Notes under the pieces: model-generated
Database searches by the model: none
Told to the model about the DNA's origin: nothing
Seen by the model: only the letters and a program-made list of their open reading frames with translations
Origin: Synergistaceae bacterium
Lineage (GTDB): Bacteria > Synergistota > Synergistia > Synergistales > 79-D21
Length of the DNA stretch: 32,673 nt
NCBI GenBank assembly: GCA_012517195.1
Contig: JAAYVK010000080.1
Coordinates: forward strand, 1-32,673
Reading direction: 5' to 3'
Position numbers and translations under genes: made by a program
Shown: positions 307-14,830 of the stretch, piece by piece
How positions within the stretch are numbered: position 1 is the first letter of the stretch
Layout: each line of letters starts with the position of its first letter

Positions 307-324
307 GTGAAAAGGACCGGCCCC

Positions 325-1401
325 ATGAACGGAAAACTCGAAGGCGGGGAGCCGAAGGGCACCTTGCCGGACCTGCTCAGGATCGATTCCTACGATTACG
401 ACCTCCCCCCGGGGCAAATCGCGCAATCGCCGGCGACCCCGCGCGATTCATCCCGCCTTCTCGTGCTGAGGCGTTCGACAGGCCTGCTGGAGCACCGGGT
501 TTTCCGGGAACTACCCGAGTTTCTCCGCCCGGATGATCTTCTCGTGCTGAATGACGCCCGGGTGATTCCAGCCCGGCTTCTCGGGCGGAAGATGGACGGA
601 TCGGCCCGATGCGAAATCTTTCTGTTGCGACCGACACGCCCCGACTGGAGAGAGTGGGAAGCACTGGTCAGACCTGGAAGGAGGCTTCAGCCGGGGACGG
701 CGGTCCTCCTGGGTGAAGGGACCGCCGTGCGGGTTGAGGAAAGGCTCCCCGAGGGGCTGCGACGGGTCCGGTTTCCAGAAACCCTCGACGTCCATGACTT
801 GATCGGCAAAGCGGGTCAGGTTCCCTTGCCCCCGTACATCGAGAACGAGACGATCGACCCCGAACGCTACCAAACGGTTTACGCAAGCCGGGAAGGTGCA
901 GTGGCTGCCCCCACTGCCGGGCTTCATTTCACGGAAAGCCTTCTGGGAAAAATCCGTTCCATGGGAATCGAGATCCGGAGACTGACCCTTCACGTGGGAA
1001 TCGGCACTTTTCGACCGGTCAAAGAGTCCGATATCCGCAACCATCCGATGCACGAAGAATTTTTCGAAATTCCCGAAGAAACCGCCCAAAGCGTTACCGA
1101 AGCCCTGCGAGGAAGAAGGAGAATCGTCGCCGTTGGAACGACCGTCGTCAGGGCCCTGGAGGCTGCCTCTCAAACCGGGACATGCCTGCCGGGCATCAAT
1201 CGAACAAGGCTGTTCATCTATCCTGGATACCGCTTCAGGGCGATCGGCGCCCTCATCACGAACTTTCACCTGCCCCGAAGCAGTCTCCTGATGCTCGTTA
1301 GCGCGTTTGCCGGGCATGAACTCATCATGAAAGCGTATCAAACGGCGGTCCGGGAAAAATACCGGTTTTTCTCCTTTGGAGACGCCATGTTCATCGAATA
1401 G
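325..1401 (+). CDS. queA: S-adenosylmethionine:tRNA ribosyltransferase-isomerase (QueA)
   Basis: QueA transfers and isomerises the ribosyl moiety of S-adenosylmethionine onto 7-aminomethyl-7-deazaguanine in tRNA, giving epoxyqueuosine. The protein has the typical N-terminal YDYDLPPGQIAQ.P motif, LVLNDARVIPARL, AAPTAGLHFTE and the terminal FFSFGDAMFIE. The length of 358 residues is normal for the family (about 340-360). A GTG at 307 would add six residues, but I prefer ATG 325 because AAAGGA at 311-316 lies 8 bases upstream of it. No other queuosine gene is in view. It follows the SpoIID-like gene closely and precedes the AmmeMemoRadiSam pair by 82 bases. Function is assigned with high confidence; the exact start is less certain. 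Confidence 0.96.
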   Translation: MNGKLEGGEPKGTLPDLLRIDSYDYDLPPGQIAQSPATPRDSSRLLVLRRSTGLLEHRVFRELPEFLRPDDLLVLNDARVIPARLLGRKMDGSARCEIFLLRPTRPDWREWEALVRPGRRLQPGTAVLLGEGTAVRVEERLPEGLRRVRFPETLDVHDLIGKAGQVPLPPYIENETIDPERYQTVYASREGAVAAPTAGLHFTESLLGKIRSMGIEIRRLTLHVGIGTFRPVKESDIRNHPMHEEFFEIPEETAQSVTEALRGRRRIVAVGTTVVRALEAASQTGTCLPGINRTRLFIYPGYRFRAIGALITNFHLPRSSLLMLVSAFAGHELIMKAYQTAVREKYRFFSFGDAMFIE

Positions 1402-1483: not shown

Positions 1484-2809
1484 ATGTGGCTTTGGGGTTG
1501 TCTGGCTCCACATCCGCCCATCATCGTCCCGGCGGTTGGCCGGGGGAGGGAGCGCGAAGCGTCGAAAACCCTCCACGGGATGAAAGCCCTGGCGGAAAAG
1601 GTGAAGTGCGAAAAACCCGATCTGCTCTTCGTCCTGAGCCCTCACGCACCGTTCGGAAACGGTCTGATGTTTGTCGATGCGGAAACCTTCGAAGGGGGGC
1701 TTCAGAAATTCGGCGTTCCCGATCCTTTCTTTTCGGCACCGGGAAACTCCGAAGCCGTCCAGAAGCTGTCCGATTTCCTCGCTGGTTCGATTCGCCTCGG
1801 CACCTGGAGGACCTCCATCTTTGCCCTTGATCATGCCTCGGTCGTTCCCCTGACCTGGTTCGCCGAAACCTGGGGACAGCTGCCGCCTCTCGTTTTGGCC
1901 AACCCGATCGGCCTTGACCTCGAATCCGCCTACCGGCTGGGGGAAAAACTCGCAGGATTCGAGGATCCGCGCCGCTGGGCTCTCCTGGCAAGCGGAGACC
2001 TGTCCCACCGGGTCACTCCCGGGGCCCCCGCAGGGTACCATCCCGACGGCCGGAGGTTTGACGAGGCCGTGATCAACGCCTTGAGACAGAGCGACGCCTC
2101 AGCGCTTCTGAGGCTCGATCCGGATCTGATTGACCGGGCCGGAGAATGCGGCCTGAGATCTGTGTTGGCGTTGCTCGGTCTCGCCGGGAGCGGGCCGATC
2201 GAGGTCCTTTCCTACGAAGCCCCGTTCGGGGTGGGGTATGGAACCGCGTTCTGGAAAAAGACGGAAAGCAAGGGACTGCCGCACCTTGCCCGGGAAGCGG
2301 TGCTCTTTTACCTTAAGACCGGGAAAAGACTCCCCGTGGAACAGGCCCGGCAAATCACGCCCGATCCCAGAATCTGGACCGAAAGGAAAGCCTGCTTCGT
2401 TTCCCTGAAGGATCGGCGGAACGGCTCGCTTCGGGGCTGCATCGGGACAATCGAGCCGACGTCCCCCTCGCTGGGCGAAGAAATCATCCGCAATGCAATG
2501 GCCAGCGCCACCCAGGATCCGCGCTTCGAGCCCGTCAGCCTGCCGGAATTGCAGGACCTGGTCTTCTCGGTCGACGTGCTTGGACGCCCTGAACGGGTTT
2601 CGGGACCTGAATCGCTCGATCCGAAACGGTTTGGCGTCATCGTCGAAAAGGGGAATCGACGCGGGGTGCTTTTGCCGGACCTGGAAGGGGTCGACACCGT
2701 CGATGAGCAGCTTTTCATCGCCAGCCGCAAAGCAGGGCTTCCGGGTCCGGAAGGAGCCGGCCTGTGGCGTTTTACGGTCGAGCGGTTCCGGGAGCAGGAA
2801 GAACAATGA
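1484..2809 (+). CDS. MEMO-AMMECR1 fusion protein (AmmeMemoRadiSam system proteins B and A)
   Basis: This 441-residue protein joins two domains that are separate in many organisms. Residues ~1-255 resemble the MEMO/LigB-type family, related to class III extradiol dioxygenases: LAPHPPIIVP (His10), LSPHAP (His54), LDHASVVPL (His117) and SGDLSHR (His175) are candidate metal-site histidines. Residues ~262-438 are an AMMECR1 domain with its hallmark LRGCIG at 316-321, preceded by ACFVSL. In bacteria and archaea these two families co-occur with a radical SAM enzyme as the AmmeMemoRadiSam system, whose reaction is not established. The next gene is that radical SAM partner and overlaps by 4 bases, so the two are surely co-translated. 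The start is ATG 1484 behind a G-rich Shine-Dalgarno sequence. Domain assignment is strong; no enzymatic activity is claimed. Confidence 0.92.
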   Translation: MWLWGCLAPHPPIIVPAVGRGREREASKTLHGMKALAEKVKCEKPDLLFVLSPHAPFGNGLMFVDAETFEGGLQKFGVPDPFFSAPGNSEAVQKLSDFLAGSIRLGTWRTSIFALDHASVVPLTWFAETWGQLPPLVLANPIGLDLESAYRLGEKLAGFEDPRRWALLASGDLSHRVTPGAPAGYHPDGRRFDEAVINALRQSDASALLRLDPDLIDRAGECGLRSVLALLGLAGSGPIEVLSYEAPFGVGYGTAFWKKTESKGLPHLAREAVLFYLKTGKRLPVEQARQITPDPRIWTERKACFVSLKDRRNGSLRGCIGTIEPTSPSLGEEIIRNAMASATQDPRFEPVSLPELQDLVFSVDVLGRPERVSGPESLDPKRFGVIVEKGNRRGVLLPDLEGVDTVDEQLFIASRKAGLPGPEGAGLWRFTVERFREQEEQ

Positions 2810-3822
2810 GCGGGTCTGAAGCCGGAGCTGCAATCGCGCTCTGGTGGAACCGGGAAAACGGAAGCATCCGCTGTACTCTTTGCCCGCACCGGTGCCTGAT
2901 CAAACCGGGGCAGCGGGGGCTTTGCGGGGTCCGGCAGGCTTCAGCGGACGGACAATCCCTCGAGGCCCTGAATGCCGGTCTGGCGGCCGCCATCCATCTG
3001 GATCCCATCGAAAAGAAGCCGCTGTTCCACTGGCAGCCGGGCAGCCGGATCCTTTCGGTCGGAACGGTCGGCTGCAATCTTGCCTGCCCTTTCTGTCAGA
3101 ATTGGGAGCTGGCTCGCTGGGATCCCACCGTGGGGCTGTTCAGGATTGCGCCTCAGGACCTCCTGAAAGCTGCAAGGGATTCGGGAAGCGGGAGTGTGGC
3201 CTTCACTTACAACGAACCGCTTGTCTGGTACGAATTTCTCCGCGAAGCAGCGCCGCTCCTTCGAAAGGAAGGGTTCGACGTCGTCCTGGTCACCAACGGC
3301 ACCATCAACCCGGATCCCCTGGAGGCCATCCTTCCTTTTGTTTCAGCGGCAAACGTCGATCTCAAGGCTTTTTCGGAAACGGCCTACCGGAAGATGGGGG
3401 GATTTCTCCAGCCAGTCCTGGAAACGATCCGCACCTTGAAAAGGTCCAATGTCCATGTGGAACTCACGCACCTGCTCGTACCGGGGATCAACCTCGAAAG
3501 AGCCTCCTTTGAAAAAATGGTGGAGTGGATTGGCGACCTGGATGAAACGATTCCGCTCCACCTTTCCCGGTATTTCCCGCGGTGGAAGTGGACCGAACCC
3601 GCAACCCCCCTGCCGGTCATGGAAGAGTTCCGGCAGATCGCATCCGGCAGGCTTTTCTACGTTTACCTGGGCAACCTGTCCGGCCTGGGAATCACCCGAT
3701 GCAGAAAATGCGGACGTGACATCGTTGTACGCGATGGATATAATGTTGTGCAGCTTGAATTAGATTTATTGGGAAAGTGCCGGTTCTGCGGACAGGAGAA
3801 CGGATTCGTTGTTCGCCGGTAA
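2806..3822 (+). CDS. amrS: AmmeMemoRadiSam system radical SAM enzyme (AmrS)
   Basis: A 338-residue radical SAM protein. The [4Fe-4S]-SAM cluster motif is C90-N-L-A-C94-P-F-C97 (CxxxCxxC). An N-terminal cysteine cluster (C23, C26, C30, C40) and a C-terminal pair of CxxC motifs (RCRKCG and KCRFCG) flank the core, as is typical of the AmrS branch of the pyruvate formate-lyase activating enzyme-like family. FTYNEP (core) and VTNGTINPDPLEA fit that family. I start at ATG 2806, whose ATGA overlaps the stop of the MEMO-AMMECR1 gene; an upstream in-frame start at 2764 would lie inside that gene. Substrate and product are unknown. The 3' end of this gene is unusually AT-rich and contains a consensus-like promoter for the following hut operon. 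Confidence 0.92.
   Translation: MSGSEAGAAIALWWNRENGSIRCTLCPHRCLIKPGQRGLCGVRQASADGQSLEALNAGLAAAIHLDPIEKKPLFHWQPGSRILSVGTVGCNLACPFCQNWELARWDPTVGLFRIAPQDLLKAARDSGSGSVAFTYNEPLVWYEFLREAAPLLRKEGFDVVLVTNGTINPDPLEAILPFVSAANVDLKAFSETAYRKMGGFLQPVLETIRTLKRSNVHVELTHLLVPGINLERASFEKMVEWIGDLDETIPLHLSRYFPRWKWTEPATPLPVMEEFRQIASGRLFYVYLGNLSGLGITRCRKCGRDIVVRDGYNVVQLELDLLGKCRFCGQENGFVVRR
3716..3744 (+). promoter_or_regulatory. Sigma70-type promoter ahead of the hut operon, inside amrS
   Basis: GTGACA (3716-3721), a 17-base spacer and a perfect TATAAT (3739-3744) lie within the last 110 bases of amrS. The -35 matches 5 of 6 bases and the -10 all 6. Transcription would start near 3751, leaving a leader of about 115 bases before hutH at 3867. 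The segment is AT-rich compared with its GC-rich surroundings. Because it lies in coding sequence, some of the match could be chance. Confidence 0.6.
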
Positions 3823-3866: not shown

Positions 3867-5399
3867 TTGGACGGAAAAGTGATCGCACTGAACGGACACT
3901 CTCTCTCGCTCGAAGACGTCGTAAAGGTTGCGAGGGAAGGATTTGGAGTCTCCCTCGATCCCGCAGCGGTGACCTTCGTGGAGAGGGGAGGGCGTATCGT
4001 CAGGGAATGGGCCAGGGATGGAAAGGTAATCTACGGGATTACGACGGGATTTGGGGACCTGGCTTCAGTTTCGATTCCGCCCGATCAAAGTGAATTACTT
4101 CAGAAAAATCTCCTCCTGAGCCATGCCTGCGGAGTGGGGGAACCTTTGCCGGAAGACGCGGTGAGGGCTATCATGCTGCTGAGGATCAACACTTTGACGC
4201 GGGGATTTTCCGGGATCAGCCTGGAAACCCTGACTCAGCTCGTCAATTACCTCAACCTGGGAATCCACCCGGTGATTCCAAGCCAGGGTTCCGTAGGTGC
4301 CAGCGGTGATCTATGCCCTCTTTCCCACCTGGCGATCACCCTTCTCGGTGAAGGAGAGGTTTTCTATGGGGGCCGCAGGATGCCGACAGCCAGGGCCCTC
4401 CAGGAAACCGGCCTGAAGCCCGTTTCCCTGAAACCCAAAGAGGGGCTGGCCCTGAACAACGGAACAGCCTTCATGGCCGGCCTGGCGGCTCTTGCCGTCT
4501 ACGATGCATCGCTGCTCTCCAAGGTCGCAGACATCGCCGCGGCTCTTTCCCTCGAAGCGCTGCACGGAGTCCCCTACGCCTTCGACCCCAGGACTCATGA
4601 ACTTCGGCCCCACACTGGGCAAAAACTGGTGGCGGAGAACATCCGGACCCTGATCAAGGATAGCCGGATCATTGAACGCTTCAAGGGCAACCGCGTCCAG
4701 GACGCCTATTCCCTGCGCTGCGTCCCCCAGGTGCACGGGGCCAGCCGCGATGCGCTGGAATTCGTTCGGGGCAAGATCGACCTCGAGATCAACTCCGTGA
4801 CGGACAACCCGATCATTTTCCCCACGGACGGCATCGCCATCAGCGGAGGCAACTTCCATGGACAGCCCATCGCCCTGGCCATGGACTTTTTCGGTATCGC
4901 CGTCGCAGAACTTGCAGACATTTCGGAGAGAAGGGTCGCCCGGCTTGTGGACCACAAGCTTTCCGGACTGCCCCCGTTCCTTGTGCCCGAAAGCGGCCTG
5001 AACAGCGGATTCATGATCCCGCAGTACACGTGCGCAGCCCTTGTTTCCGAGAACAAGGTCCTGGCTCACCCAGCTTCCGTGGATTCGATCACGACCTCGG
5101 CCTGCCAGGAAGACCACGTTTCCATGGGAGCCCATGCAGCCCGGAAGGCCAGGACTATCCTGGAAAACACCTTCAACGTCCTGGCTATCGAGATCCTGAC
5201 GGCAGCCCAGGGCATCGACTTCAGCCTGCCCCTGAAGCCGGGAAAGGGAACGGAAGCCGCCTACGCTGCGGTGCGGGAGGCCGTCCCCTTCTACGAAAAG
5301 GATGCCTTCATGGAACCGCTGATCCGGGAGGTCCACCGGATCACCCGTTCCGGAAAGATCGTGGCGGAGGTCGAAGCCGCCGTCGGCCGATTGAACTGA
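3867..5399 (+). CDS. hutH: Histidine ammonia-lyase (HutH)
   Basis: HutH removes ammonia from L-histidine to give trans-urocanate, the first step of histidine breakdown, in the cytoplasm. The 510-residue length is normal. The signature GSVGASGDLCPLSHLA contains Ala145-Ser146-Gly147, which self-condenses into the MIO electrophile. YGITTGFG (Tyr56), NGTAFMAGLAAL, RCVPQVHGA and the C-terminal TSACQEDHVSMG are other family motifs. The start is TTG 3867, supported by AAGGAGG at 3853-3859 with 7 bases spacing and by the typical N-terminus (ALNGHSLSLEDVVKVAREG). It is the first gene of the hut operon and is followed at once by the transporter genes. Phenylalanine/tyrosine ammonia-lyases share the fold, but hutU, hutI, ftcD and fchA downstream settle the assignment. 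Confidence 0.97.
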   Translation: MDGKVIALNGHSLSLEDVVKVAREGFGVSLDPAAVTFVERGGRIVREWARDGKVIYGITTGFGDLASVSIPPDQSELLQKNLLLSHACGVGEPLPEDAVRAIMLLRINTLTRGFSGISLETLTQLVNYLNLGIHPVIPSQGSVGASGDLCPLSHLAITLLGEGEVFYGGRRMPTARALQETGLKPVSLKPKEGLALNNGTAFMAGLAALAVYDASLLSKVADIAAALSLEALHGVPYAFDPRTHELRPHTGQKLVAENIRTLIKDSRIIERFKGNRVQDAYSLRCVPQVHGASRDALEFVRGKIDLEINSVTDNPIIFPTDGIAISGGNFHGQPIALAMDFFGIAVAELADISERRVARLVDHKLSGLPPFLVPESGLNSGFMIPQYTCAALVSENKVLAHPASVDSITTSACQEDHVSMGAHAARKARTILENTFNVLAIEILTAAQGIDFSLPLKPGKGTEAAYAAVREAVPFYEKDAFMEPLIREVHRITRSGKIVAEVEAAVGRLN

Positions 5400-5427
5400 A
5401 ATCTGGATCTGAAGGAAGACGACCGTC

Positions 5428-6294
5428 ATGCAGCTTTTTCTCGAACAAATGCTGAACGGCATCGCCATCGGGGCGATCTATGCGATGATCACGCTGGGAC
5501 TGGCCCTGGTGTATGGGATCCTCCGGATCCTCCACGTGGCCCATGCCGCCGTTTATACGGTGGGAGCCTACATCGGACTTGCGATCTTCTCCGCCACCCA
5601 CAGCATCCTCCTGTCGGCCGCGGGAGCCATGGTGTTCTGTGCCGGCCTGGGGTTTCTGATCGAGCGGTTCGTCTATTTCCCGCTTTTGAAATACCCTCCC
5701 TATGTCCCTCTCATCGGGAGCATTGCCTGCCTGCTTGCCATAGAAGAGCTCTGCCGTCTCGCGGCGGGCCCCTACATCCTCTCGTTTCCAGCCCAGCTGC
5801 CGTTCCCGAGCTTCACGGTGGGGGGGATCGTGATTTCCTCCACGCTTACGGCGGTTTACTGCATCAGTGCCGGGGTTCTTGCCCTTCTCTGGTTCATCAC
5901 GACGAGAACCGAGCTCGGCCTTGCCATGCGGGCGACGTCGCAAGACATGGCGATCGCGAGCTCGATGGGGATCAACAGTCACCGGATCATCTCCCTGACT
6001 TTCATGATCGGTTCGGCGGTGGCCGCGATCGCCGGCATCCTAGTGGGGATCTACTACAACCAGGTCTATCCCTCGATGGGAGCGGTCCCTGCCTACAAGA
6101 CCCTGGCTTTGATCGTCGTCGGGGGGCTGGGTTCGGTGCCGGGTGCGGTTCTGGCATCGATTCTCCTCGGGGTCGGGGAAACCCTGCTGATCGGCTACGC
6201 GGGCATTCCTCTCCCGCGGGATGCCCTGGCCTTCATTGCCATGATCGCCGTTCTTCTCTGGCGCCCGCAGGGACTCCTCGGCGGCCGCGGGTAG
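5428..6294 (+). CDS. livH: HAAT-type amino acid ABC transporter permease (LivH-like)
   Basis: A 288-residue, highly hydrophobic inner-membrane permease of the hydrophobic/branched-chain amino acid transporter family. The family N-terminus is clear (LNGIAIGAIYAMITLGLALVYGILRILHVAHAA), as is the late cytoplasmic loop MGINSHRIISLTFMIGSAVAAIAGIL and the C-terminal LLWRPQGLLGGRG. About eight membrane segments are expected. It starts 28 bases after hutH behind a GGAAG site and precedes its partner permease by 16 bases. The position between hutH and hutU suggests that the transporter brings in histidine or a related pathway substrate and not Leu/Ile/Val; this is inference from context, since sequence alone does not show substrate. 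Confidence 0.93.
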   Translation: MQLFLEQMLNGIAIGAIYAMITLGLALVYGILRILHVAHAAVYTVGAYIGLAIFSATHSILLSAAGAMVFCAGLGFLIERFVYFPLLKYPPYVPLIGSIACLLAIEELCRLAAGPYILSFPAQLPFPSFTVGGIVISSTLTAVYCISAGVLALLWFITTRTELGLAMRATSQDMAIASSMGINSHRIISLTFMIGSAVAAIAGILVGIYYNQVYPSMGAVPAYKTLALIVVGGLGSVPGAVLASILLGVGETLLIGYAGIPLPRDALAFIAMIAVLLWRPQGLLGGRG

Positions 6295-6310
6295 AGGAGG
6301 AAAGACTTCC

Positions 6311-7192
6311 ATGAGCGAGTATTCGATCACCATCGGGACCTTGATCGCCATCCAGGCAATCGTCGCCTGCGGCCTGAATGTCATTGTCGGCTACGCCGGG
6401 CAGATTTCACTGGGACACGCAGCCTTCTTCGGAATCGGAGCCTATGCCTCGGCCCTTCTGACCACGGCAGGGGGGCTTTCCTTCTGGAGCGCGCTGCCAA
6501 TCGTCCTGGGGATCACCGGGCTCATCGGGCTGTTTCTGGGACTTCCGAGCCTCCGTCTGAGAGAAGACTTCCTGGCGATCACCACCATCGGGATCAACTT
6601 CATCGTCGTGTCCGTTTTCCAGTACGTCCCCTTTTTCGGCGGGGCCCTGGGGATTGGAGGAATCCCCAGGATCGTCCTTTTCGGGGAACGGATCAGGGGA
6701 GTTTCCTTCCTGCTCCTGAGCGCGGGCTTCCTCGCCATCACTCTCCTGATCTGCTGGCTGTTCACCCGGAGCTGGTCGGGCCTGGCCTGCTTCGCCCTCC
6801 GGGAGGACGAGACCGCCGCATCCAGCATGGGGGTGTCCCCCGTGCGGTTCAAGCTGACCGCCTTCATCCTGGGGACAGCCATGGCGGGGCTGGGCGGAGC
6901 CCTCTACGCCCATTTCATGCGCTTCATCAGCGCCACCGATTTCGGCTTTCCCATGTCGGTCATGATCCTGTCCATGGTCGTCCTGGGAGGCATGGGGACG
7001 CTGTGGGGCCCGGTCCTGGGCGCCCTCGTCCTGGGCATTCTTCCGGAGGTGTTCAGACCCCTGACGGATTACCGGATGTTCCTTTACGCGGCCCTCCTCC
7101 TGCTTATGATCCGTTTCCAGCCGGGGGGTCTTTTGGGAGAGAACAGCCTGGCCAGGCAGACCCTTTCCAGGCTGAAGGGAGGGAAGTCCTGA
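6311..7192 (+). CDS. livM: HAAT-type amino acid ABC transporter permease (LivM-like)
   Basis: The second permease, 293 residues, with the diagnostic LivM motifs GLNVIVGYAGQISLGHAAFFGIGAYASALL near the N-terminus, SLRLREDFLAITTIGI in the middle, ALREDETAASSMGV in the ABC-contacting loop and VVLGGMGTLWGPVLGA near the end. It pairs with LivH to form the membrane channel. A strong GAGGAGG-like site lies just before ATG 6311, and its stop overlaps the livG start by one base (TGATG at 7190-7194), indicating translational coupling. Confidence 0.93.
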   Translation: MSEYSITIGTLIAIQAIVACGLNVIVGYAGQISLGHAAFFGIGAYASALLTTAGGLSFWSALPIVLGITGLIGLFLGLPSLRLREDFLAITTIGINFIVVSVFQYVPFFGGALGIGGIPRIVLFGERIRGVSFLLLSAGFLAITLLICWLFTRSWSGLACFALREDETAASSMGVSPVRFKLTAFILGTAMAGLGGALYAHFMRFISATDFGFPMSVMILSMVVLGGMGTLWGPVLGALVLGILPEVFRPLTDYRMFLYAALLLLMIRFQPGGLLGENSLARQTLSRLKGGKS

Positions 7193-7959
7193 TGGACGAA
7201 GCCCTTCTAAGCCTGCGTGAGATCTCCATGCACTTCGGGGGCCTGAAGGCCCTGGACAAGGTTTCGTTCGATCTGCGGGAAGGAGAGATCCTCGGATTGA
7301 TCGGCCCGAACGGCGCCGGCAAGACCACCTGTTTCAACACCGTATCGGGGGTCTACCGCCCGACCTCGGGAGAAATCCGATTCCGCGGAACCCGGACGGA
7401 CGGCCTGCCTCCCCACCGGATGGCCGCCCTGGGAATCGGCCGGACCTTCCAGATCGTCCGCCCCTTCCCGAACCTGACGGTCCTGGAAAACGTCATCGTG
7501 GCCGCGGGCCTGAACTGCTACGGGAAACTGATCCCCTCCTGCCGTCCCTGGAAAGGTCGCAAGACCCGGGAAGAAGCGATGGAAATTCTCGCCCGGGTAG
7601 GGCTTGATAGCCAGGCAGAACAGAAAGCGGGGCTCCTGCCCCTGGGCAACCTGAGGCGGCTCGAGCTGGCGAGAGCCCTGGCGCTGAAACCGCATCTTCT
7701 GCTCCTGGACGAATCGTTCTCGGGCCTTCGGCACGAGGAGATCGCCCAGCAGGAGGAACTGGTCCGGAAAACCCGGGAGAGCGGGATCTCGATCCTTCTC
7801 ATCGAGCACAACATGAGGGTCGCCATGGGATTGTGCGACCGGCTGGTGGTCCTCGACCACGGGATGAAACTGGCCGAGGGGAAACCGGAATCCATCCGGA
7901 ACAATCCGGAGGTCATCCGGGCCTACCTGGGCAAGGGGGGCAGCGCCAATGCTTCTTGA
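7192..7959 (+). CDS. livG: HAAT-type amino acid ABC transporter ATP-binding protein (LivG-like)
   Basis: A cytoplasmic ATPase of 255 residues. The Walker A motif is GPNGAGKTT, the Q-loop region is GRTFQIVRPFPNLTVLENV, and Walker B is LLLLDES with the catalytic Glu kept. The signature loop reads LPLGNLRRLELARAL in place of the classical LSGGQ; relaxed signatures such as this are frequent in LivG-type proteins, so I do not treat it as damage. HNMRVAMGLCDRLVVLDHG carries the switch His. The start is ATG 7192, overlapping the livM stop; longer in-frame extensions lie inside livM and lack family similarity. It overlaps livF by 11 bases and probably heterodimerises with it. Confidence 0.94.
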   Translation: MDEALLSLREISMHFGGLKALDKVSFDLREGEILGLIGPNGAGKTTCFNTVSGVYRPTSGEIRFRGTRTDGLPPHRMAALGIGRTFQIVRPFPNLTVLENVIVAAGLNCYGKLIPSCRPWKGRKTREEAMEILARVGLDSQAEQKAGLLPLGNLRRLELARALALKPHLLLLDESFSGLRHEEIAQQEELVRKTRESGISILLIEHNMRVAMGLCDRLVVLDHGMKLAEGKPESIRNNPEVIRAYLGKGGSANAS

Positions 7960-8659
7960 GGTCCGCGATCTCCGGATCGCCTACGGGGATATCGAGGCCG
8001 TTCACGGGGTTTCCTTCTCGGTGGAGGAAGGCGAGCTGGTTTCCATCATCGGCGCGAACGGGGCAGGGAAAAGCTCGATCCTGAACGCGATCATGGGGCT
8101 GGTGCCCTCCCGTTCCGGGTCGATCCGCTTCAAGACGGCGGAAATTTCCAGAATGGCCGCTCATGAACGGGCACGGGCCGGGATTCGACTTGTGCCGGAA
8201 AGGGCACGCGTTTTTCCCCGGCTGACGGTCATGGAAAACCTACGGGTCGGCCTTTATGGGATCCACGATAGGTCCCGGGAAGAAAAACAGCTTGAATGGC
8301 TTTACTCCCTTTTCCCGATCCTGGCGGAAAGGAGCGGGCAGAATGCCGCGACGCTCTCCGGAGGGGAGCAGCAGCAGCTCGCCATCGCAAGGGCCTTGAT
8401 CTCCGATCCCCGGCTTCTGCTGGTGGACGAAGTTTCCATGGGGCTCATGCCGAAGCTGGTGGAAGAGGTGTTCACGGTCCTGCAGGAACTGAACCGTCAG
8501 AAGGGGCTGACGATCCTGCTGGTGGAGCAGAACGCCCTGGCGTCGCTCGAGATTTCCAAACGCTCCTACGTCCTGGAAACCGGGAGGATCCAGTTTGAAG
8601 GCGAATCCAGGGTCCTGAAGGATGACCCGCGAATTCGCGAGGCCTACCTGGGCCTTTGA
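7949..8659 (+). CDS. livF: HAAT-type amino acid ABC transporter ATP-binding protein (LivF-like)
   Basis: A 236-residue ATPase, normal length for LivF. It has Walker A GANGAGKSS, a canonical signature LSGGEQQQLAIARAL, Walker B LLLVDEVSMGL and the switch His region with ILLVEQN. LVPERARVFPRLTVMENL is a typical LivF Q-loop neighbourhood. ATG 7949 lies 11 bases before the end of livG. It completes the HLMGF order; the binding protein follows 51 bases later. Confidence 0.94.
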   Translation: MLLEVRDLRIAYGDIEAVHGVSFSVEEGELVSIIGANGAGKSSILNAIMGLVPSRSGSIRFKTAEISRMAAHERARAGIRLVPERARVFPRLTVMENLRVGLYGIHDRSREEKQLEWLYSLFPILAERSGQNAATLSGGEQQQLAIARALISDPRLLLVDEVSMGLMPKLVEEVFTVLQELNRQKGLTILLVEQNALASLEISKRSYVLETGRIQFEGESRVLKDDPRIREAYLGL

Positions 8660-8710
8660 GACCAGGCGCAAGAAACAGGATTCAAATTCATTTCGGGAGG
8701 TGTTTCGGAT

Positions 8711-9865
8711 ATGCGTGGTTTTCGGGTTTTTGCGGCTGTTCTGGTGATCCTGTGTCTTTCGATCGGCGTTGCTTCGGCGGCGGAGACGATCAAGATCGGG
8801 ATGCTGGCCCCCTTGACAGGGTTTGCGGCGGCAGACGGAGCCAGCGCCTTGAATTCCGTCAAAATCGCCGTTGACCAGGTCAATGGGCAGGGGGGAGTCC
8901 TGGGAAAGAAGATCCAGCTGATCGTCTACGATGACCGGGCCGACGCAAAAGAAGCGGTCGCTCTGGCCTATAAGCTCATCGAGCAGGACAAGATCGCTGC
9001 TTTCGTTGCTGGTTCCTATAGCCTTCCCACCCGGGCCGTTGCCCCGATCTTCCAGGAGGAGAAGATCCCCCTGGTCGCGGCCTACGCCATCCACCCGGAT
9101 GTCACCAAGGCCGGAGAATACTGCTTCAGGAACGGGTTTCTGGGCACGGTGGAAGGCAAGGCGGCAGCCTATACCGCCCATAAGCTCCTGAACGCCAAAA
9201 CGGTCGCGCTTTTGACCAGCGACAACGATTTCGGCCGGACCCTGGTCGAGGGATTCAAGATGTACCAGGCGAAATACGGCAAGGACATGAAGATCGTCTA
9301 CGAGCAGGCCTACCCCTTCAGCGAGAAGGACTTCAAGCCCTACCTATCCAAGATCAAGGAAGCCAACCCGGACGTGATCTTCGCCAGCGGCTACTATTTC
9401 CAGACCGGGCCGCTGCTCAAGCAGGCCCGGGAACTTGGAATCAAGTCGAAAATCCTCGGGGAGGAAGGGGCTGACTCCCCGAAACTGGCTGAAATCGCCG
9501 GAGAGGCAGCCGAAGGCTTCTACATCGTCACAAACTTCGACCGGGATGACCCCCGGCCCGTCGTCCAGAACTTCCTCAAGGAATACCGCAAGCGCTACAA
9601 GATCGAGCCGGACATGGTGGGAGCCTCGGCCTACGACGCTTTCATGATCATCGTAGACGCCATGAGGAAAACCAAGACCTATTCCAACCCCACCGCGATC
9701 CGGATGGCCATTTCCAAGACAACCAATTTTGATGGCCTGACCGGGATCATCAAGGGCTTCACCCACATCGGGGAAGTTGTGAAGCCGGTCCAGGTCCAGG
9801 TGGTAAAGAACGGTTTGTTCCGGCGTTTCGGAGTGGTGGACGATCCCGAGCTGATTCGTCCGTAG
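8711..9865 (+). CDS. livJ: Periplasmic amino acid-binding protein of the HAAT transporter (LivJ/LivK-like)
   Basis: A 384-residue substrate-binding protein. The N-terminus is a signal peptide: a charged start (MRGFR), a hydrophobic core (VFAAVLVILCLSIGVA) and a likely signal peptidase I site after ASA, before AETIKIG. There is no lipobox cysteine, which points to a soluble periplasmic protein and so to a cell with an outer membrane. The mature part starts KIGMLAPLTGFAAADG and continues INP-like (VDQVNGQGGVLGKKIQLIVYDDRAD), typical of type I periplasmic binding proteins of the Leu/Ile/Val family. A strong GGGAGGTG site precedes ATG 8711. Position in the hut operon suggests histidine or urocanate as ligand; this is inference. 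A stable hairpin follows the gene and may protect its mRNA. Confidence 0.93.
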   Translation: MRGFRVFAAVLVILCLSIGVASAAETIKIGMLAPLTGFAAADGASALNSVKIAVDQVNGQGGVLGKKIQLIVYDDRADAKEAVALAYKLIEQDKIAAFVAGSYSLPTRAVAPIFQEEKIPLVAAYAIHPDVTKAGEYCFRNGFLGTVEGKAAAYTAHKLLNAKTVALLTSDNDFGRTLVEGFKMYQAKYGKDMKIVYEQAYPFSEKDFKPYLSKIKEANPDVIFASGYYFQTGPLLKQARELGIKSKILGEEGADSPKLAEIAGEAAEGFYIVTNFDRDDPRPVVQNFLKEYRKRYKIEPDMVGASAYDAFMIIVDAMRKTKTYSNPTAIRMAISKTTNFDGLTGIIKGFTHIGEVVKPVQVQVVKNGLFRRFGVVDDPELIRP

Positions 9866-9889
9866 ACGTAGAAAGGGATCCTTGGAGGC

Positions 9890-9921
9890 GAGGGGTGTGC
9901 CCTAGTTCCCGCACACCCCTC
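9890..9921 (+). terminator. Stem-loop between livJ and hutU (attenuator or mRNA-stabilising hairpin)
   Basis: Perfect 11-bp inverted repeat: GAGGGGTGTGC (9890-9900) and GCACACCCCTC (9911-9921) with a 10-base loop. No T-run follows (the next bases are ATTCGCG), so it is not a classical intrinsic terminator. Such hairpins after transporter binding-protein genes often raise the abundance of the upstream mRNA by blocking 3' exonucleases; that role is inferred. Confidence 0.55.
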
Positions 9922-9968
9922 ATTCGCGAAAGGGAACGGAATGTTTCCCTCAGGAGGTGCATGAGATC

Positions 9969-12014
9969 ATGAGCATCAACAGAGAAATCGGCAAGGCCAT
10001 GACCATCAGGCTGGACGGCCCTTTTCCGCCGGATCCCGTTTTTGAACCCGGGATCCGGCGCGCCCCGAACCGGGGGTACAGCCTGAACCGCCGGGAAACC
10101 GAACTGGCGCTGAAAAACGCCCTCCGGTACATTCCCGAGGAGTGGCATGAAAGGCTCGCTCCCGAATTCATGCAAGAACTCCTGACAAGGGGGCGCATCT
10201 ACGGCTACCGTTTTCGGCCCCAGGGGAGGATCTGGGGGCGGCCCATCGACGAGTACGAGGGGAAGACAGTCGAAGGCAAAGCCTTCCAGGTCATGATCGA
10301 TAACAACCTGGATTTCGAAGTTGCCCTGTACCCGTATGAACTGGTTACCTACGGAGAAACGGGACAGGTGTGCCAGAACTGGATGCAGTACCGGCTCATC
10401 ATGAAATACCTCCAGATCATGACAGACGAGCAGACCCTCGTTGTGGCCTCGGGACATCCTCTGGGCCTGTTCCGTTCGCGTCCCGACAGTCCCCGCGTCA
10501 TCATTACAAACGGACTCATGGTGGGGATGTTCGACAACCAGGAGGAATGGCACCGGGCGATGCAGCTGGGGGTGTCAAATTACGGCCAGATGACTGCAGG
10601 GGGATGGATGTACATCGGCCCCCAGGGGATCGTCCACGGGACCTTTAACACGATCCTGAACGCCGGGCGCCTGAAACTGGGGCTGGGGCCAAACGAGGAC
10701 CTTTCCGGGCACCTGTTCATCTCCTCCGGACTGGGCGGCATGAGCGGGGCCCAGCCGAAAGCCGTGGAAATCGCCAGGGGAGTTGGAATTTTCGCGGAGG
10801 TGGACGCTTCCCGGATCGAAACCCGTCACAGCCAGGGATGGGTTTCCCGTGTCACGGCGAACCTGGACGAAGCCTTCCTCTGGGCGGAAAAAGCCATGGC
10901 GGAGAAAGAACCGCTCTCCATCGCCTACCACGGGAACATCGTGGACCTCCTGGAGTACGCCGTGAAGCAGGGAAGGAGGATCGACCTGCTCTCAGACCAG
11001 ACATCGTGTCATGCCCCCTATGACGGAGGCTATTGCCCGCAGGGACTCACCTTCGAAGAACGGACCGAAATGCTGGCAAAAGACCGGGCGGAATTCCGCC
11101 GAAGGGTCGACGAAAGCCTGCGGAAGCATTTTTCCCTGGTCAAGACGCTGGTGGAAAGGGGGACCTACTTCTTCGACTATGGGAACTCCTTCCTGAAGGC
11201 CGTTTTCGACGCCGGGGTGAAGGAGGTTGCCCGGAACGGCCATGACGAACTCGACGGGTTCATCTTCCCCTCGTACGTCGAGGACATTATGGGGCCGATG
11301 CTTTTCGACTACGGATACGGCCCCTTCCGCTGGGTCTGCCTGAGCGGGAGGCACGAGGACCTCGTCAAGACGGACCGTGCGGCAATGGAATGCATCGATC
11401 CAAACCGCCGCGGCCAGGACAGGGACAACTGGATCTGGATCCGGGATGCGGAGAAAAACGCCCTGGTGGTAGGAACACAGGCTCGAATCCTGTACCAGGA
11501 TGCCGGGGGACGGATGCGGATCGCCCGGCGGTTCAACGAAATGGTGCGGCGCGGTGAGATCGGCCCGGTCATGATGGGGCGAGACCACCATGACGTGTCG
11601 GGAACGGATTCGCCCTTCCGCGAAACCGCCAATATCAAGGATGGAAGCGCCATCACAGCCGATATGGCCATCCACTGCTTCGCCGGAAACGCCGCGAGGG
11701 GCATGAGCCTTGTGGCTTTGCACAACGGCGGGGGAGTGGGGATCGGGAAAGCCATCAACGGCGGGTTCGGACTGGTTCTCGACGGGAGCGAGAAGGCGGA
11801 TCGGGCGATCGAGCTTTCCCTGGCCTGGGACGTCATGGGAGGAGTGGCCCGGAGGGCGTGGGCCCGAAACGAAAACGCCCTGACCACCAGCATGGAGTAC
11901 AACCGCCAGCACCAGGGAACCGACCACATCACCCTGCCGTTCATTCCCGACGAGGAACTGGTCAGGGAAACCGTCAAAAAGGCCCTGGATCGAACCCTTG
12001 GAAAGGATGCCTGA
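9969..12014 (+). CDS. hutU: Urocanate hydratase (HutU), long form
   Basis: HutU adds water to urocanate using tightly bound NAD+ as an electrophile, giving imidazolonepropionate. The protein has 681 residues, far longer than the ~555-residue form of Pseudomonas or Bacillus and close to the ~676-residue animal-type enzyme. Recognised motifs are YGQMTAGGWMYIGPQGIVHG (~205-224), the NAD-binding GLGGMSGAQPKA (254-265), YHGNIVDLLEYA, LLSDQTSCHAPYDGGY (~340-355), GRDHHDVSGTDSPFRET and the C-terminal LHNGGGVGIGKAINGGFG. The start is ATG 9969, 9 bases after AGGAGGTG (9952-9959); the in-frame GTG 9957 overlaps that site. It begins the second half of the hut operon, after the transporter block. Confidence 0.96.
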   Translation: MSINREIGKAMTIRLDGPFPPDPVFEPGIRRAPNRGYSLNRRETELALKNALRYIPEEWHERLAPEFMQELLTRGRIYGYRFRPQGRIWGRPIDEYEGKTVEGKAFQVMIDNNLDFEVALYPYELVTYGETGQVCQNWMQYRLIMKYLQIMTDEQTLVVASGHPLGLFRSRPDSPRVIITNGLMVGMFDNQEEWHRAMQLGVSNYGQMTAGGWMYIGPQGIVHGTFNTILNAGRLKLGLGPNEDLSGHLFISSGLGGMSGAQPKAVEIARGVGIFAEVDASRIETRHSQGWVSRVTANLDEAFLWAEKAMAEKEPLSIAYHGNIVDLLEYAVKQGRRIDLLSDQTSCHAPYDGGYCPQGLTFEERTEMLAKDRAEFRRRVDESLRKHFSLVKTLVERGTYFFDYGNSFLKAVFDAGVKEVARNGHDELDGFIFPSYVEDIMGPMLFDYGYGPFRWVCLSGRHEDLVKTDRAAMECIDPNRRGQDRDNWIWIRDAEKNALVVGTQARILYQDAGGRMRIARRFNEMVRRGEIGPVMMGRDHHDVSGTDSPFRETANIKDGSAITADMAIHCFAGNAARGMSLVALHNGGGVGIGKAINGGFGLVLDGSEKADRAIELSLAWDVMGGVARRAWARNENALTTSMEYNRQHQGTDHITLPFIPDEELVRETVKKALDRTLGKDA

Positions 12015-12020
12015 TTGCAG

Positions 12021-12944
12021 ATGAGCAGGAAACTCCTGGAATGCGTTCCGAATTTCAGCGAGGGGAGACGACCGGAGGTCATCGAGGAGATCGTCACCCC
12101 ATTCCGAAACCGGGCCGGGTGCACCCTGTTCGACTACCGCGCAGACCCCGATCACAACCGCCTTGTCGTGAGCCTGGTGGGAGAGCCCGAGGCGCTCACG
12201 GAATCCCTTCTCCTGGCAGCGGAAACAGCCGTCCGGCACATTGACATGAATCATCACCAGGGAGCCCATCCCCGGATCGGGGCGATCGATGTCATTCCCT
12301 TCACCCCTGTCCAGGGAATGACGATGGAGGAATGCGTCGCTTTCTCCCATGAATTCGGGAAAAGGTTTTACGAAAAGACCCGGATCCCGGTCTATTTCTA
12401 CGAAGAGTCGGCCCTGAGGCCGGAGAGGACCCGCCTGGAGGTCATTCGGAAAGGACAGTACGAGGTCCTGAAGAACGAAGTGGAAAAGCCCGAACGCAGA
12501 CCCGACGTCGGAGAGCCGAGGCTCCACCCGACCGCCGGGGCAACAGTGGTGGGAGCAAGAAAATTCCTCGTGGCTTTCAACGTCAACCTCCGGACCACGG
12601 ATCTGGCGGTGGCGAAACGGATCGCGGCAGCGGTCAGGGCTTCGAGCGGCGGTCTCTGTGCCGTCAAGGGAATCGGCGTTGCCCTGGAGGACAAGGGAAT
12701 GGTCCAGGTCAGCATGAACATCGTCGATTACGAAAAGAACGCACTCTATCGAGTGCTTGAGATGATCCGGTTCGAGGCCCGCAGGTGGGGGGTCGAAATC
12801 GCTGAAACGGAAATCTACGGGATGATTCCGGCTCGAGCCATCCTGGAAAGCGCAGCCTATTACCTCCAGGTGGCGGATTTTGATCCCATGCAGGTTCTGG
12901 AACTGAAGCTTCTGGAAACGATGGGGAGCGAAGAAACCCGATGA
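12021..12944 (+). CDS. ftcD: Glutamate formimidoyltransferase (FtcD, transferase domain only)
   Basis: This enzyme transfers the formimino group of N-formimino-L-glutamate to tetrahydrofolate, releasing glutamate. The protein of 307 residues corresponds to the transferase half of the bifunctional animal enzyme; the cyclodeaminase is a separate gene (fchA) two genes downstream. The N-terminal LLECVPNFSEGRRPEVIEEI is diagnostic. HHQGAHPRIGAIDVIPFTPV (~78-97) contains the probable catalytic His83. GARKFLVAFNVNLRT and GGLCAVKGIGVALEDKGMVQVSMN follow. ATG 12021 gives the usual N-terminus; TTG 12015, two codons upstream and better spaced from AAAGGA (12002-12007), is an alternative. Its stop overlaps the hutI start by 4 bases. 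Confidence 0.95.
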   Translation: MSRKLLECVPNFSEGRRPEVIEEIVTPFRNRAGCTLFDYRADPDHNRLVVSLVGEPEALTESLLLAAETAVRHIDMNHHQGAHPRIGAIDVIPFTPVQGMTMEECVAFSHEFGKRFYEKTRIPVYFYEESALRPERTRLEVIRKGQYEVLKNEVEKPERRPDVGEPRLHPTAGATVVGARKFLVAFNVNLRTTDLAVAKRIAAAVRASSGGLCAVKGIGVALEDKGMVQVSMNIVDYEKNALYRVLEMIRFEARRWGVEIAETEIYGMIPARAILESAAYYLQVADFDPMQVLELKLLETMGSEETR

Positions 12945-14185
12945 CGGTCAAGCTTTTCGTCAACGCCCGCTGCTTCACTCCGATCGATCCAGGGCGCCCC
13001 CTGTCCGGAAATGACCAGGGAATGATCCGGGAGATCCCGAGAAGTGCGATCCTGACCCAGGACGGACGAATCCTCCAGATCGGCCCCGAACCGGAAGTAC
13101 TGGAGGCCGTAAGGCACTTGTCTCCGGACCAGGAAATCGATTGCGGGGGGCACTGCGTAATCCCGGGTTTTGTCGACCCCCATACCCATCTCTGTTTCCA
13201 CGGCTTGCGGGAATCCGAGTTCTCCATGCGGCTGGAAGGCATTCCCTATCTTGAAATCCTTCGGCGCGGCGGCGGAATTCTCTCTTCGGTGAAGCGGGTT
13301 CGGGCAGCCACAGAAGAAGAACTCTTTAAATCGACCCAGCAGCTTGCTCAATCTGCCCTGGCTCACGGGACGACAACGATCGAAATCAAGAGCGGATACG
13401 GCCTTGAAACGCAGGCCGAACTCAAGATGCTCCGGGTGATCGACCGGGTAGGCAGGCAGTCGCCGCTCGACGTCGTTCCAACCTTCATGGGCGCTCACGC
13501 CATACCGGAAGAATTCGCCGGCGATTCGGAAGGTTTCGTCGAGATGATCATCCACGAGATGCTGCCGGAGGTCGCAACCCAGGGGATCGCACGATTCTGC
13601 GACGTTTTCTGCGAGGAAGGGGTCTTTTCAATTGCCCAAAGCAGGCGTATCCTCGAAGCCGCGAGAGCCTTGGGGTTCGGAATCAAGATCCATGCGGACG
13701 AGGTCCACGACCTCGGAGGGGCGGGGCTGGCGGCCTCGGTCGGCGCCCTCTCGGCCGAGCACCTTCTCGCGGCTTCCGATGAAGGATTGAAAGCCATGGC
13801 CGCTGCCGGAACGATCGCGGTCCTCCTGCCGGCGACGGCCTACAGCCTGGGGAAACCCTTCGCCAGGGGAAGGGAAATGATCCGTCTCGGGGTTCCCGTC
13901 GCGCTGGCGACGGATTGCAATCCGGGATCCTGTTTCTGCGAGTCGATTCCCTTCGTGTTCGGTCTCGCCGTTTTGGGGATGAAGCTCTCCCCGGAAGAAG
14001 CGCTGACCGCGACCACCTTGAATGCGGCCTACGCGGTCGGACAGGCGAAGTCCTGCGGCAGCCTGGAACCTGGGAAAAAGGCGGATTTTCTCATCCTCGA
14101 GGGACAGACCCCGGCAATCCTTGCGTACCATGCGGGAGGATCTCCCGTTAAGGCCGTTTATAAGGGTGCAGAACGCGTTGTTTGA
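12941..14185 (+). CDS. hutI: Imidazolonepropionase (HutI)
   Basis: HutI hydrolyses imidazolone-5-propionate to N-formimino-L-glutamate. The 414-residue protein is an amidohydrolase-superfamily enzyme: CVIPGFVDPHTHL holds the HxH metal pair (His81 and His83), GTTTIEIKSGYGL is the substrate-loop motif, THP-like VVPTFMGAHAIP and IKIHADEVHD give further metal and catalytic residues, and ATDCNPGSCFCESIPF contains the active-site Asp. The start codon (12941) overlaps the ftcD stop as ATGA. Length and motif order are normal. Placement among hutU, ftcD and fchA leaves little doubt about function. Confidence 0.96.
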   Translation: MTVKLFVNARCFTPIDPGRPLSGNDQGMIREIPRSAILTQDGRILQIGPEPEVLEAVRHLSPDQEIDCGGHCVIPGFVDPHTHLCFHGLRESEFSMRLEGIPYLEILRRGGGILSSVKRVRAATEEELFKSTQQLAQSALAHGTTTIEIKSGYGLETQAELKMLRVIDRVGRQSPLDVVPTFMGAHAIPEEFAGDSEGFVEMIIHEMLPEVATQGIARFCDVFCEEGVFSIAQSRRILEAARALGFGIKIHADEVHDLGGAGLAASVGALSAEHLLAASDEGLKAMAAAGTIAVLLPATAYSLGKPFARGREMIRLGVPVALATDCNPGSCFCESIPFVFGLAVLGMKLSPEEALTATTLNAAYAVGQAKSCGSLEPGKKADFLILEGQTPAILAYHAGGSPVKAVYKGAERVV

Positions 14186-14203
14186 TTAGGAAAGGAGTAT
14201 TCT

Positions 14204-14830
14204 ATGCTCTCAGATCTTTCTCTTCGAGATTTTGTCAAAGAATTGGGTTCCGCCTCTCCAGCTCCCGGGGGCGGTTCGGCGGCTGCGCTTGCCGGAGCCC
14301 TGGCAAGCAGCCTCTGTTCGATGGTCGCAGCATTGACCGCCGGAAAGGAACGCTTCCGGGACGTATGGCCGGAAATGGTCGAAGCCGGTGAAAAAAGCAG
14401 GCAGCTTACGGAAAGACTGATCGAATTGATGGACCAGGACGCGGAGGCATACAACCGCGTCATGGAAGCGGTCAGGATGCCCAAAAGCACGGAGGAAGAA
14501 AAATCCCTCAGGGAACAGGCTCTGCAAGAAGCCCTGAAGGCCGCTTGCAGAGTCCCCCTTGAAACGGTGCAAACAGTCGCGAAAACGGCCCGCATTATGG
14601 AATCGCTCCTTTTCAAGGGAAACCCCAATGCGGTCACCGATGTCGGTTCGGCCGGAAGGCTCGCATGGGCAGCCGCCCATGCTGCGGCCTACAATGTCGA
14701 GGTCAACCTTAGGGGAATCAGCGATTCCTCCTTTGTGGAGGAAACCCGCAAGCAGCTGCGGTTCGAACTTTCGCAGGTCGAAGCTTCCGCCATTGTCGCG
14801 GAAGCCGAAATGCAGAAGCGGTTTTCTTAA
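14204..14830 (+). CDS. fchA: Formimidoyltetrahydrofolate cyclodeaminase (FchA)
   Basis: A 208-residue, mostly helical protein of the cyclodeaminase/cyclohydrolase family. The family N-terminus is obvious: LRDFVKELGSASPAPGGGSAAALAGALA, with LCSMVAALTAGK following, and NPNAVTDVGSAGRLAWAAAHAAAYNV near the C-terminus. It converts 5-formimino-THF to 5,10-methenyl-THF and ammonia, completing the pathway begun by FtcD. In amino-acid fermenters the methenyl group can be processed to formate with ATP formation. ATG 14204 follows AAAGGAG. It is the last hut gene; mltG starts only 6 bases after its stop and no terminator is visible, so the hut transcript may run on. Confidence 0.94.
   Translation: MLSDLSLRDFVKELGSASPAPGGGSAAALAGALASSLCSMVAALTAGKERFRDVWPEMVEAGEKSRQLTERLIELMDQDAEAYNRVMEAVRMPKSTEEEKSLREQALQEALKAACRVPLETVQTVAKTARIMESLLFKGNPNAVTDVGSAGRLAWAAAHAAAYNVEVNLRGISDSSFVEETRKQLRFELSQVEASAIVAEAEMQKRFS

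Follow-up and report, generated by a model that had tools for sequence, protein, structure and literature searches.

The window analysed here, a stretch of 32,673 nucleotides, carries on its + strand an open reading frame of 441 amino acids (1484..2809, ATG start, TGA stop) which encodes two Pfam domains in one polypeptide, as the initial annotation had described. The first is a LigB-type (class III extradiol dioxygenase-like) domain (residues 7-253, 1502..2242) and the second an AMMECR1 domain with an invariant LRGC(I/V)G motif (residues 267-435, 2282..2788). The following gene, which encodes the 338-amino acid radical SAM enzyme AmrS of the AmmeMemoRadiSam system (2806..3822), begins before the fusion gene ends: its ATG (2806-2808) and the TGA of the fusion gene (2807-2809) form the four-base overlap ATGA (2806..2809) that had also been reported from the first inspection. 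An AGGA within the fusion gene (2796..2799), six bases ahead of the ATG of AmrS, resembles a Shine-Dalgarno sequence and may serve as such. AmrS carries the CX3CX2C radical SAM motif (Cys90/94/97, 3073..3096), which is invariant in all 28 AmrS sequences of the same order and in an alignment of 27 members, an N-terminal four-cysteine motif (Cys23/26/30/40, 2872..2925), likewise invariant in the 28, and a zinc-ribbon-like CXXC...CXXC tail at the C-terminus (Cys299/302/325/328, 3700..3789). Because this tail is missing in G023, G031 and G038 (loci L107, L112 and L116), where the gene ends earlier, it is not essential. Selenocysteine at the in-frame stops of these three genes was considered and rejected; the earlier stop is genuine and removes the tail.

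Two neighbours lie outside the unit on the same strand: queA upstream (307..1401; PF02547, E 5.4e-131), which adjoins it in 23 of the 28 unit-bearing genomes of the same order, and hutH downstream (3867..5399; TIGR01225, E 1.6e-202), which follows the unit directly in 21 of them. A histidine-degradation region occupies 3867-14830 of the window, with a branched-chain-type ABC transporter (5428-9865), urocanase (9957-12014), a formiminotransferase domain protein (12015-12944), an amidohydrolase that is probably hutI (12941-14185) and a separate cyclodeaminase domain protein (14204-14830). Each half of FTCD has its own gene here, and the amidohydrolase gene separates the two. The urocanase frame has about 90 residues ahead of its first Pfam domain (9957-10235), which probably reflects a later start codon, or else an extension. 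The genome from which the window comes is 1.23 Mb in size at an estimated completeness of 94%, and two of the four congeners compared have 2.1 and 2.7 Mb.

Domain identity of the fusion protein

The domain assignments did not arise by chance, since the AMMECR1 half matches PF01871 with an E value of 2.7e-41 and scores 118 bits against TIGR04335 (AmmeMemoSam_A, curated cut-off 99), and AmrS reaches 284.9 bits against TIGR04337 (AmmeMemoSam_rS, cut-off 220). The N-terminal half lies over the curated cut-off of the LigB family (PF02900, E 1.5e-24). A Memo domain, after which this half had been named initially, was not found: PF01875 gave no match in the fusion protein even when E values up to 10 were allowed, the Memo models of NCBIfam gave no match to it, and a search of the whole genome with PF01875 returned zero matches. 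The initial reading as a MEMO-AMMECR1 protein was therefore right for AMMECR1 and has to be changed for its partner, as the domain search, whose failure to find either domain the annotation had named as a refutation, recovers AMMECR1 and finds LigB instead of Memo. In 44 related fusions a profile search detected LigB every time (best 1.8e-65) and also Memo, weakly, in 18 (best 6e-10), hence the N-terminal domains of these fusions lie between the related families LigB and Memo. The N-domain is a homologue of MEMO within the same superfamily; it belongs to the LigB branch, whereas the human protein represents the MEMO branch.

The AlphaFold2 model of the fusion has a mean pLDDT of 95.7 and a pTM of 0.71, and because of the latter we are less sure how the two domains are arranged relative to each other. 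Its N-domain comes closest to TK2203 from Thermococcus kodakarensis (5HEE, TM 0.82 by target length), a putative extradiol dioxygenase which has 262 residues, shares 20% identity with it and, unlike the fusion, stands alone. Many extradiol dioxygenases follow, with 3VSH and 1BOU among the further fold matches; at least 10 entries of this kind, TK2203 included, rank above MEMO1, whose structures are found at ranks 38-42 (TM 0.56-0.57 by MEMO1 length). The solved structures nearest to the C-domain are PH0010 (1VAJ; 39% identity, rmsd 1.8 A) and other archaeal AMMECR1 proteins, which differ from the fusion in being stand-alone domains.

Across the 44 fusions, which come from several phyla, H10, H54, D116, H175 and E245 are invariant in the LigB half, H117 (41/44) and C222 (42/44) are nearly so, and L316, R317, G318, C319 and G321 are invariant in the AMMECR1 half. 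Judged by their positions, His10 (codon 1511..1513) and His54 (1643..1645) are predicted metal ligands equivalent to H12 and H61 of LigB, Glu245 (2216..2218) is the predicted third ligand (E242 of LigB), and His175 (2006..2008) is a predicted active-site histidine. Human MEMO1 (3BCZ, 7KQ8) shares the superfamily fold and two corresponding histidine ligands; its iron, however, is bound by H49, H81 and C244 (PMC11081632, which also gives the ligand equivalences between LigB and MEMO1), whereas the fusion has Glu245 at the position of C244, a match taken from LigB sequence motifs and not from residue-by-residue superposition. The metal site of the fusion would be of the dioxygenase-like 2-His-1-Glu type and not the 2-His-1-Cys type of MEMO1. 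Profile, fold and, by sequence, the ligand set all point to LigB.

We regard it as almost certain that the locus is a LigB-type variant of the AmmeMemoRadiSam unit, consisting of a LigB-AMMECR1 fusion and AmrS, with a LigB-type domain where other lineages have MEMO. It resembles the known system in that protein A (TIGR04335) and the radical SAM enzyme (TIGR04337) reach their cut-offs and the genes are contiguous, and differs in that a LigB-type domain, joined to A in one chain, takes the place of protein B (Memo). The same architecture is presumably described by the CDD entry ED_3B_N_AMMECR1, which we take to be a LigB-type domain N-terminal to AMMECR1. In the literature that we found, the bacterial system is mentioned only in passing. 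The paper on the PCAD-Memo superfamily (Burroughs et al. 2019 J Biol Chem) is cited in PMC7694686 and PMC7159879, and for MJ0403, a Memo homologue from Methanocaldococcus once proposed to be a phosphomevalonate decarboxylase, no activity was found (PMC3857490).

Fused and split forms and their gene neighbourhood

The initial annotation had expected that fusions of this kind are probably not unique, and this was correct and even understated: a scan of 84,980 species genomes yielded at least 579 stretches that encode relatives. The copy in the window is an ordinary one of hundreds, and nothing was found that distinguishes it from other LigB-AMMECR1 proteins. The viral contigs searched contained no relative. 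In the best 80 of the at least 579 relatives the two domains are encoded in one frame in 71 loci and split in 9, a fused share that is biased upward because these loci were picked by their similarity to a fused query. AmrS lies inside the fetched flank in 68 of the 80, across phyla and on either side (61 after, 7 before). An overlap of the ATGA/GTGA type is present in 14 of the 61 with AmrS downstream; the four-base overlap is one common arrangement out of many.

Within the Synergistota AMMECR1 occurs in 120 of 188 genomes, at 72 places in frames of at least 430 amino acids (fused) and at 51 in frames of at most 300, some of these short frames being cut off by contig ends. A tree of LigB plus AMMECR1 (108 loci) contains 13 changes between the fused and the split form, at least seven of them on well supported branches, and both forms occur within one genus (G012 fused; G021, G028, G035 and G040 split). 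Where the genes are split, the junction is usually an ordinary stop followed by a restart, just past the LigB domain. Read-through at these in-frame stops was rejected as an explanation, as an ordinary restart codon coincides with most of them or lies close by, and all three stop codons (TAA, TAG, TGA) are used. The stoichiometry of 1:1 that the initial annotation derived from the fusion holds for the single polypeptide, but the argument has little force because the covalent link has so often been made or lost. At one place (G108:C1:1175564-1176062) an AMMECR1 gene was seen in two broken frames, perhaps through a frameshift or because the gene is decaying.

The gene string nadE, yebC, ruvC, ruvA, ruvB, spoIID, queA, unit, hutH is kept in 23 of the 28 unit-bearing genomes of the order, and in the other five the unit is whole and stands outside the queA-hutH context. 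A link to queuosine by way of queA was rejected: nearly all genomes of the phylum have queA (170 of 188), yet six that carry the unit do without it, so QueA indicates no substrate. In the 80 wider loci hutH was not seen as a recurrent neighbour. Genes that read, by their sequence, as miaB and miaA lie near the unit in four of these loci and truA in six loci of Bacillota type. At L143, L171, L193 and L194 the fusion or split genes were observed near genes reading as miaB, miaA and dapF.

Co-occurrence and joint transfer

Of 41 genomes of the order, 28 have LigB, AMMECR1 and a high-scoring AmrS together, always contiguous and in the same arrangement, and the remaining 13 have none of the three and only low-scoring radical SAM relatives. 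Phylum-wide, AMMECR1 and LigB are found together in 117 of the 188 Synergistota genomes, AMMECR1 alone in three and LigB alone in two (Fisher p 2e-44, shared descent ignored). Of the three genomes with AMMECR1 alone, G017 had LigB in another search, in one the gene stands at a contig start, and one is 63% complete.

In the tree of LigB plus AMMECR1, G031 and G038 from the window's order fall among Bacillota, and the deltaproteobacterial loci L123 and L126 fall among Synergistota. The AmrS tree repeats both placements, with a support of 84 for the wider Bacillota group and of 100 for L123 and L126 with the Synergistota. Because both trees place these loci alike, they argue that the fusion and AmrS were transferred jointly between phyla at least two times. 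The initial annotation had staked its proposal on a link between the fusion and AmrS, and a functional link is supported by the shared 28 genomes, the constant contiguity and the joint transfer. In a comparison of rates, however, the fusion correlated with AmrS no more strongly than with SpoIID and other neighbours in the operon, hence nothing specific beyond shared descent. We consider it very probable that the three modules act in one process and are kept, lost and transferred together.

MEMO was not found in the 28 unit-bearing genomes of the order. A mutual exclusion of LigB and MEMO, which is true in the order sample, fails for the whole phylum, where 28 genomes have a separate Memo-family protein and AMMECR1; such separate proteins occur in 34 Synergistota genomes, six of them without AMMECR1, and so track AMMECR1 only loosely. 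At L204, L206, L207 and L208 separate Memo-family proteins of about 300 amino acids with an apparent signal peptide were seen in genomes that also have the LigB-AMMECR1 unit, possibly a secreted Memo branch. The genomes at L113 and L117 (G031:C144 and G038:C14) have, besides the unit, a second, stand-alone LigB gene of 284 amino acids.

Possible reactions of the unit

The AlphaFold2 model of AmrS (pLDDT 95.6) is nearest in fold to pyruvate formate-lyase (PFL) activating enzyme (3C8F, TM 0.79 by target length), which is also its top sequence match in the PDB, followed by NifB and QueE. These latter two enzymes act on clusters or small molecules. Most secondary NCBIfam matches of AmrS are to glycyl-radical activases. 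Unlike PFL activating enzyme, AmrS adds the N-terminal four-cysteine motif and usually the C-terminal CXXC pair, and it stays far under the curated cut-offs of all known activases (e.g. PFLA, 51.6 versus 231.75 bits).

As a mechanism we tentatively favour an O2-independent radical reaction in which AmrS acts on the fusion or on a substrate held by it; this is a serious possibility that falls short of being probable. AmrS would cleave S-adenosylmethionine to a 5'-deoxyadenosyl radical, which would abstract a hydrogen either from the fusion itself, at one of its residues, or from the substrate that it holds. AMMECR1, with the invariant cysteine of its LRGCxG motif, could bind the target, and the LigB domain might finish the reaction at the predicted iron site (His10, His54, Glu245), together with that cysteine and with no need for O2. 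All three modules may, as the initial annotation suggested, act on one substrate. The nearest named relatives among the matches listed are Synergistaceae, which are anaerobes, and this counts in favour of the explanation. Against it stand the cut-offs of the known activases, NifB and QueE as the next structural neighbours, and the lack of a special signal in the rates. In eukaryotes MEMO1 and AMMECR1 are, to our knowledge, present although no AmrS is evident, hence AmrS cannot be required for every role of the two proteins. A reading that joins the LigB-type identity of the unit, its one functional process and the O2-independent radical mechanism is one that we hold as a whole with caution, as possible and not as likely.

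Two other explanations are the main ones to be weighed, and they partly overlap with the favoured one. AmrS might be an activase or maturase dedicated to the fusion: like PFL activating enzyme with PFL, it would stay out of turnover and modify one residue of AMMECR1 or LigB, to yield a radical, a cross-link or a built-in cofactor. Its nearest fold and sequence, the secondary matches to activases, the invariant glycines and cysteine of the AMMECR1 motif and the strict co-occurrence of fusion and AmrS would all suit such a role; however, AMMECR1 is small and unlike glycyl radical enzymes, the activase cut-offs are not reached, and the match in fold may reflect the shared radical SAM core alone, so that we find this explanation rather unlikely. 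Less likely still is that the unit modifies an RNA base, for example in tRNA, with AMMECR1 as the nucleic acid-binding part. Genes of tRNA modification do lie beside the unit in unrelated phyla, namely queA, miaB/miaA and truA, and the PCAD-Memo paper is reported to tie Memo systems to base and isoprenoid modification. These neighbours, however, have housekeeping functions and stand in long conserved strings (ruvCAB, ribosomal proteins), and none of them is found again from phylum to phylum; the explanation is weak because of these strings and because the unit can do without queA.

That the fusion is a catabolic enzyme, tied for instance to the downstream hut genes, whose LigB domain functions as an O2-dependent dioxygenase and cleaves aromatic rings, would agree with the full 2-His-1-Glu set and His175, with the fold and with hutH as the usual next gene in the order, but it is very improbable: most relatives come, judging by the titles of their records, from anaerobic lineages, the partner is an oxygen-sensitive radical SAM enzyme, and the unit stands apart from hutH in five genomes of the order and lacks it as a recurrent neighbour in the 80 wider loci. 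Equally hard to credit is that gene order was simply inherited and that nothing functional connects the fusion with AmrS, since the unremarkable rate correlation that would allow this is set against all-or-none presence, joint transfer into new contexts and the adjacency of AmrS across phyla.

In conclusion, AMMECR1 in a whole bacterial phylum has as its constant partner a LigB-type domain with an apparently intact dioxygenase-like site, and not MEMO. The unit offers biochemistry a clear protein and clear residues (H10, H54, E245, C319), and in its two-gene form nature provides many versions, both fused and split. It might be that a complete extradiol-dioxygenase iron site, 2-His-1-Glu along with the active-site histidines, has been co-opted in anaerobes for an O2-independent reaction, with a radical SAM enzyme like the PFL activase as the oxidant, although we think this unlikely. 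For human MEMO1 and AMMECR1 we know of no agreed reaction. If the iron site has indeed been co-opted in this way, the LigB-AMMECR1-AmrS unit would reveal the reaction that MEMO and AMMECR1 ancestrally carried out.
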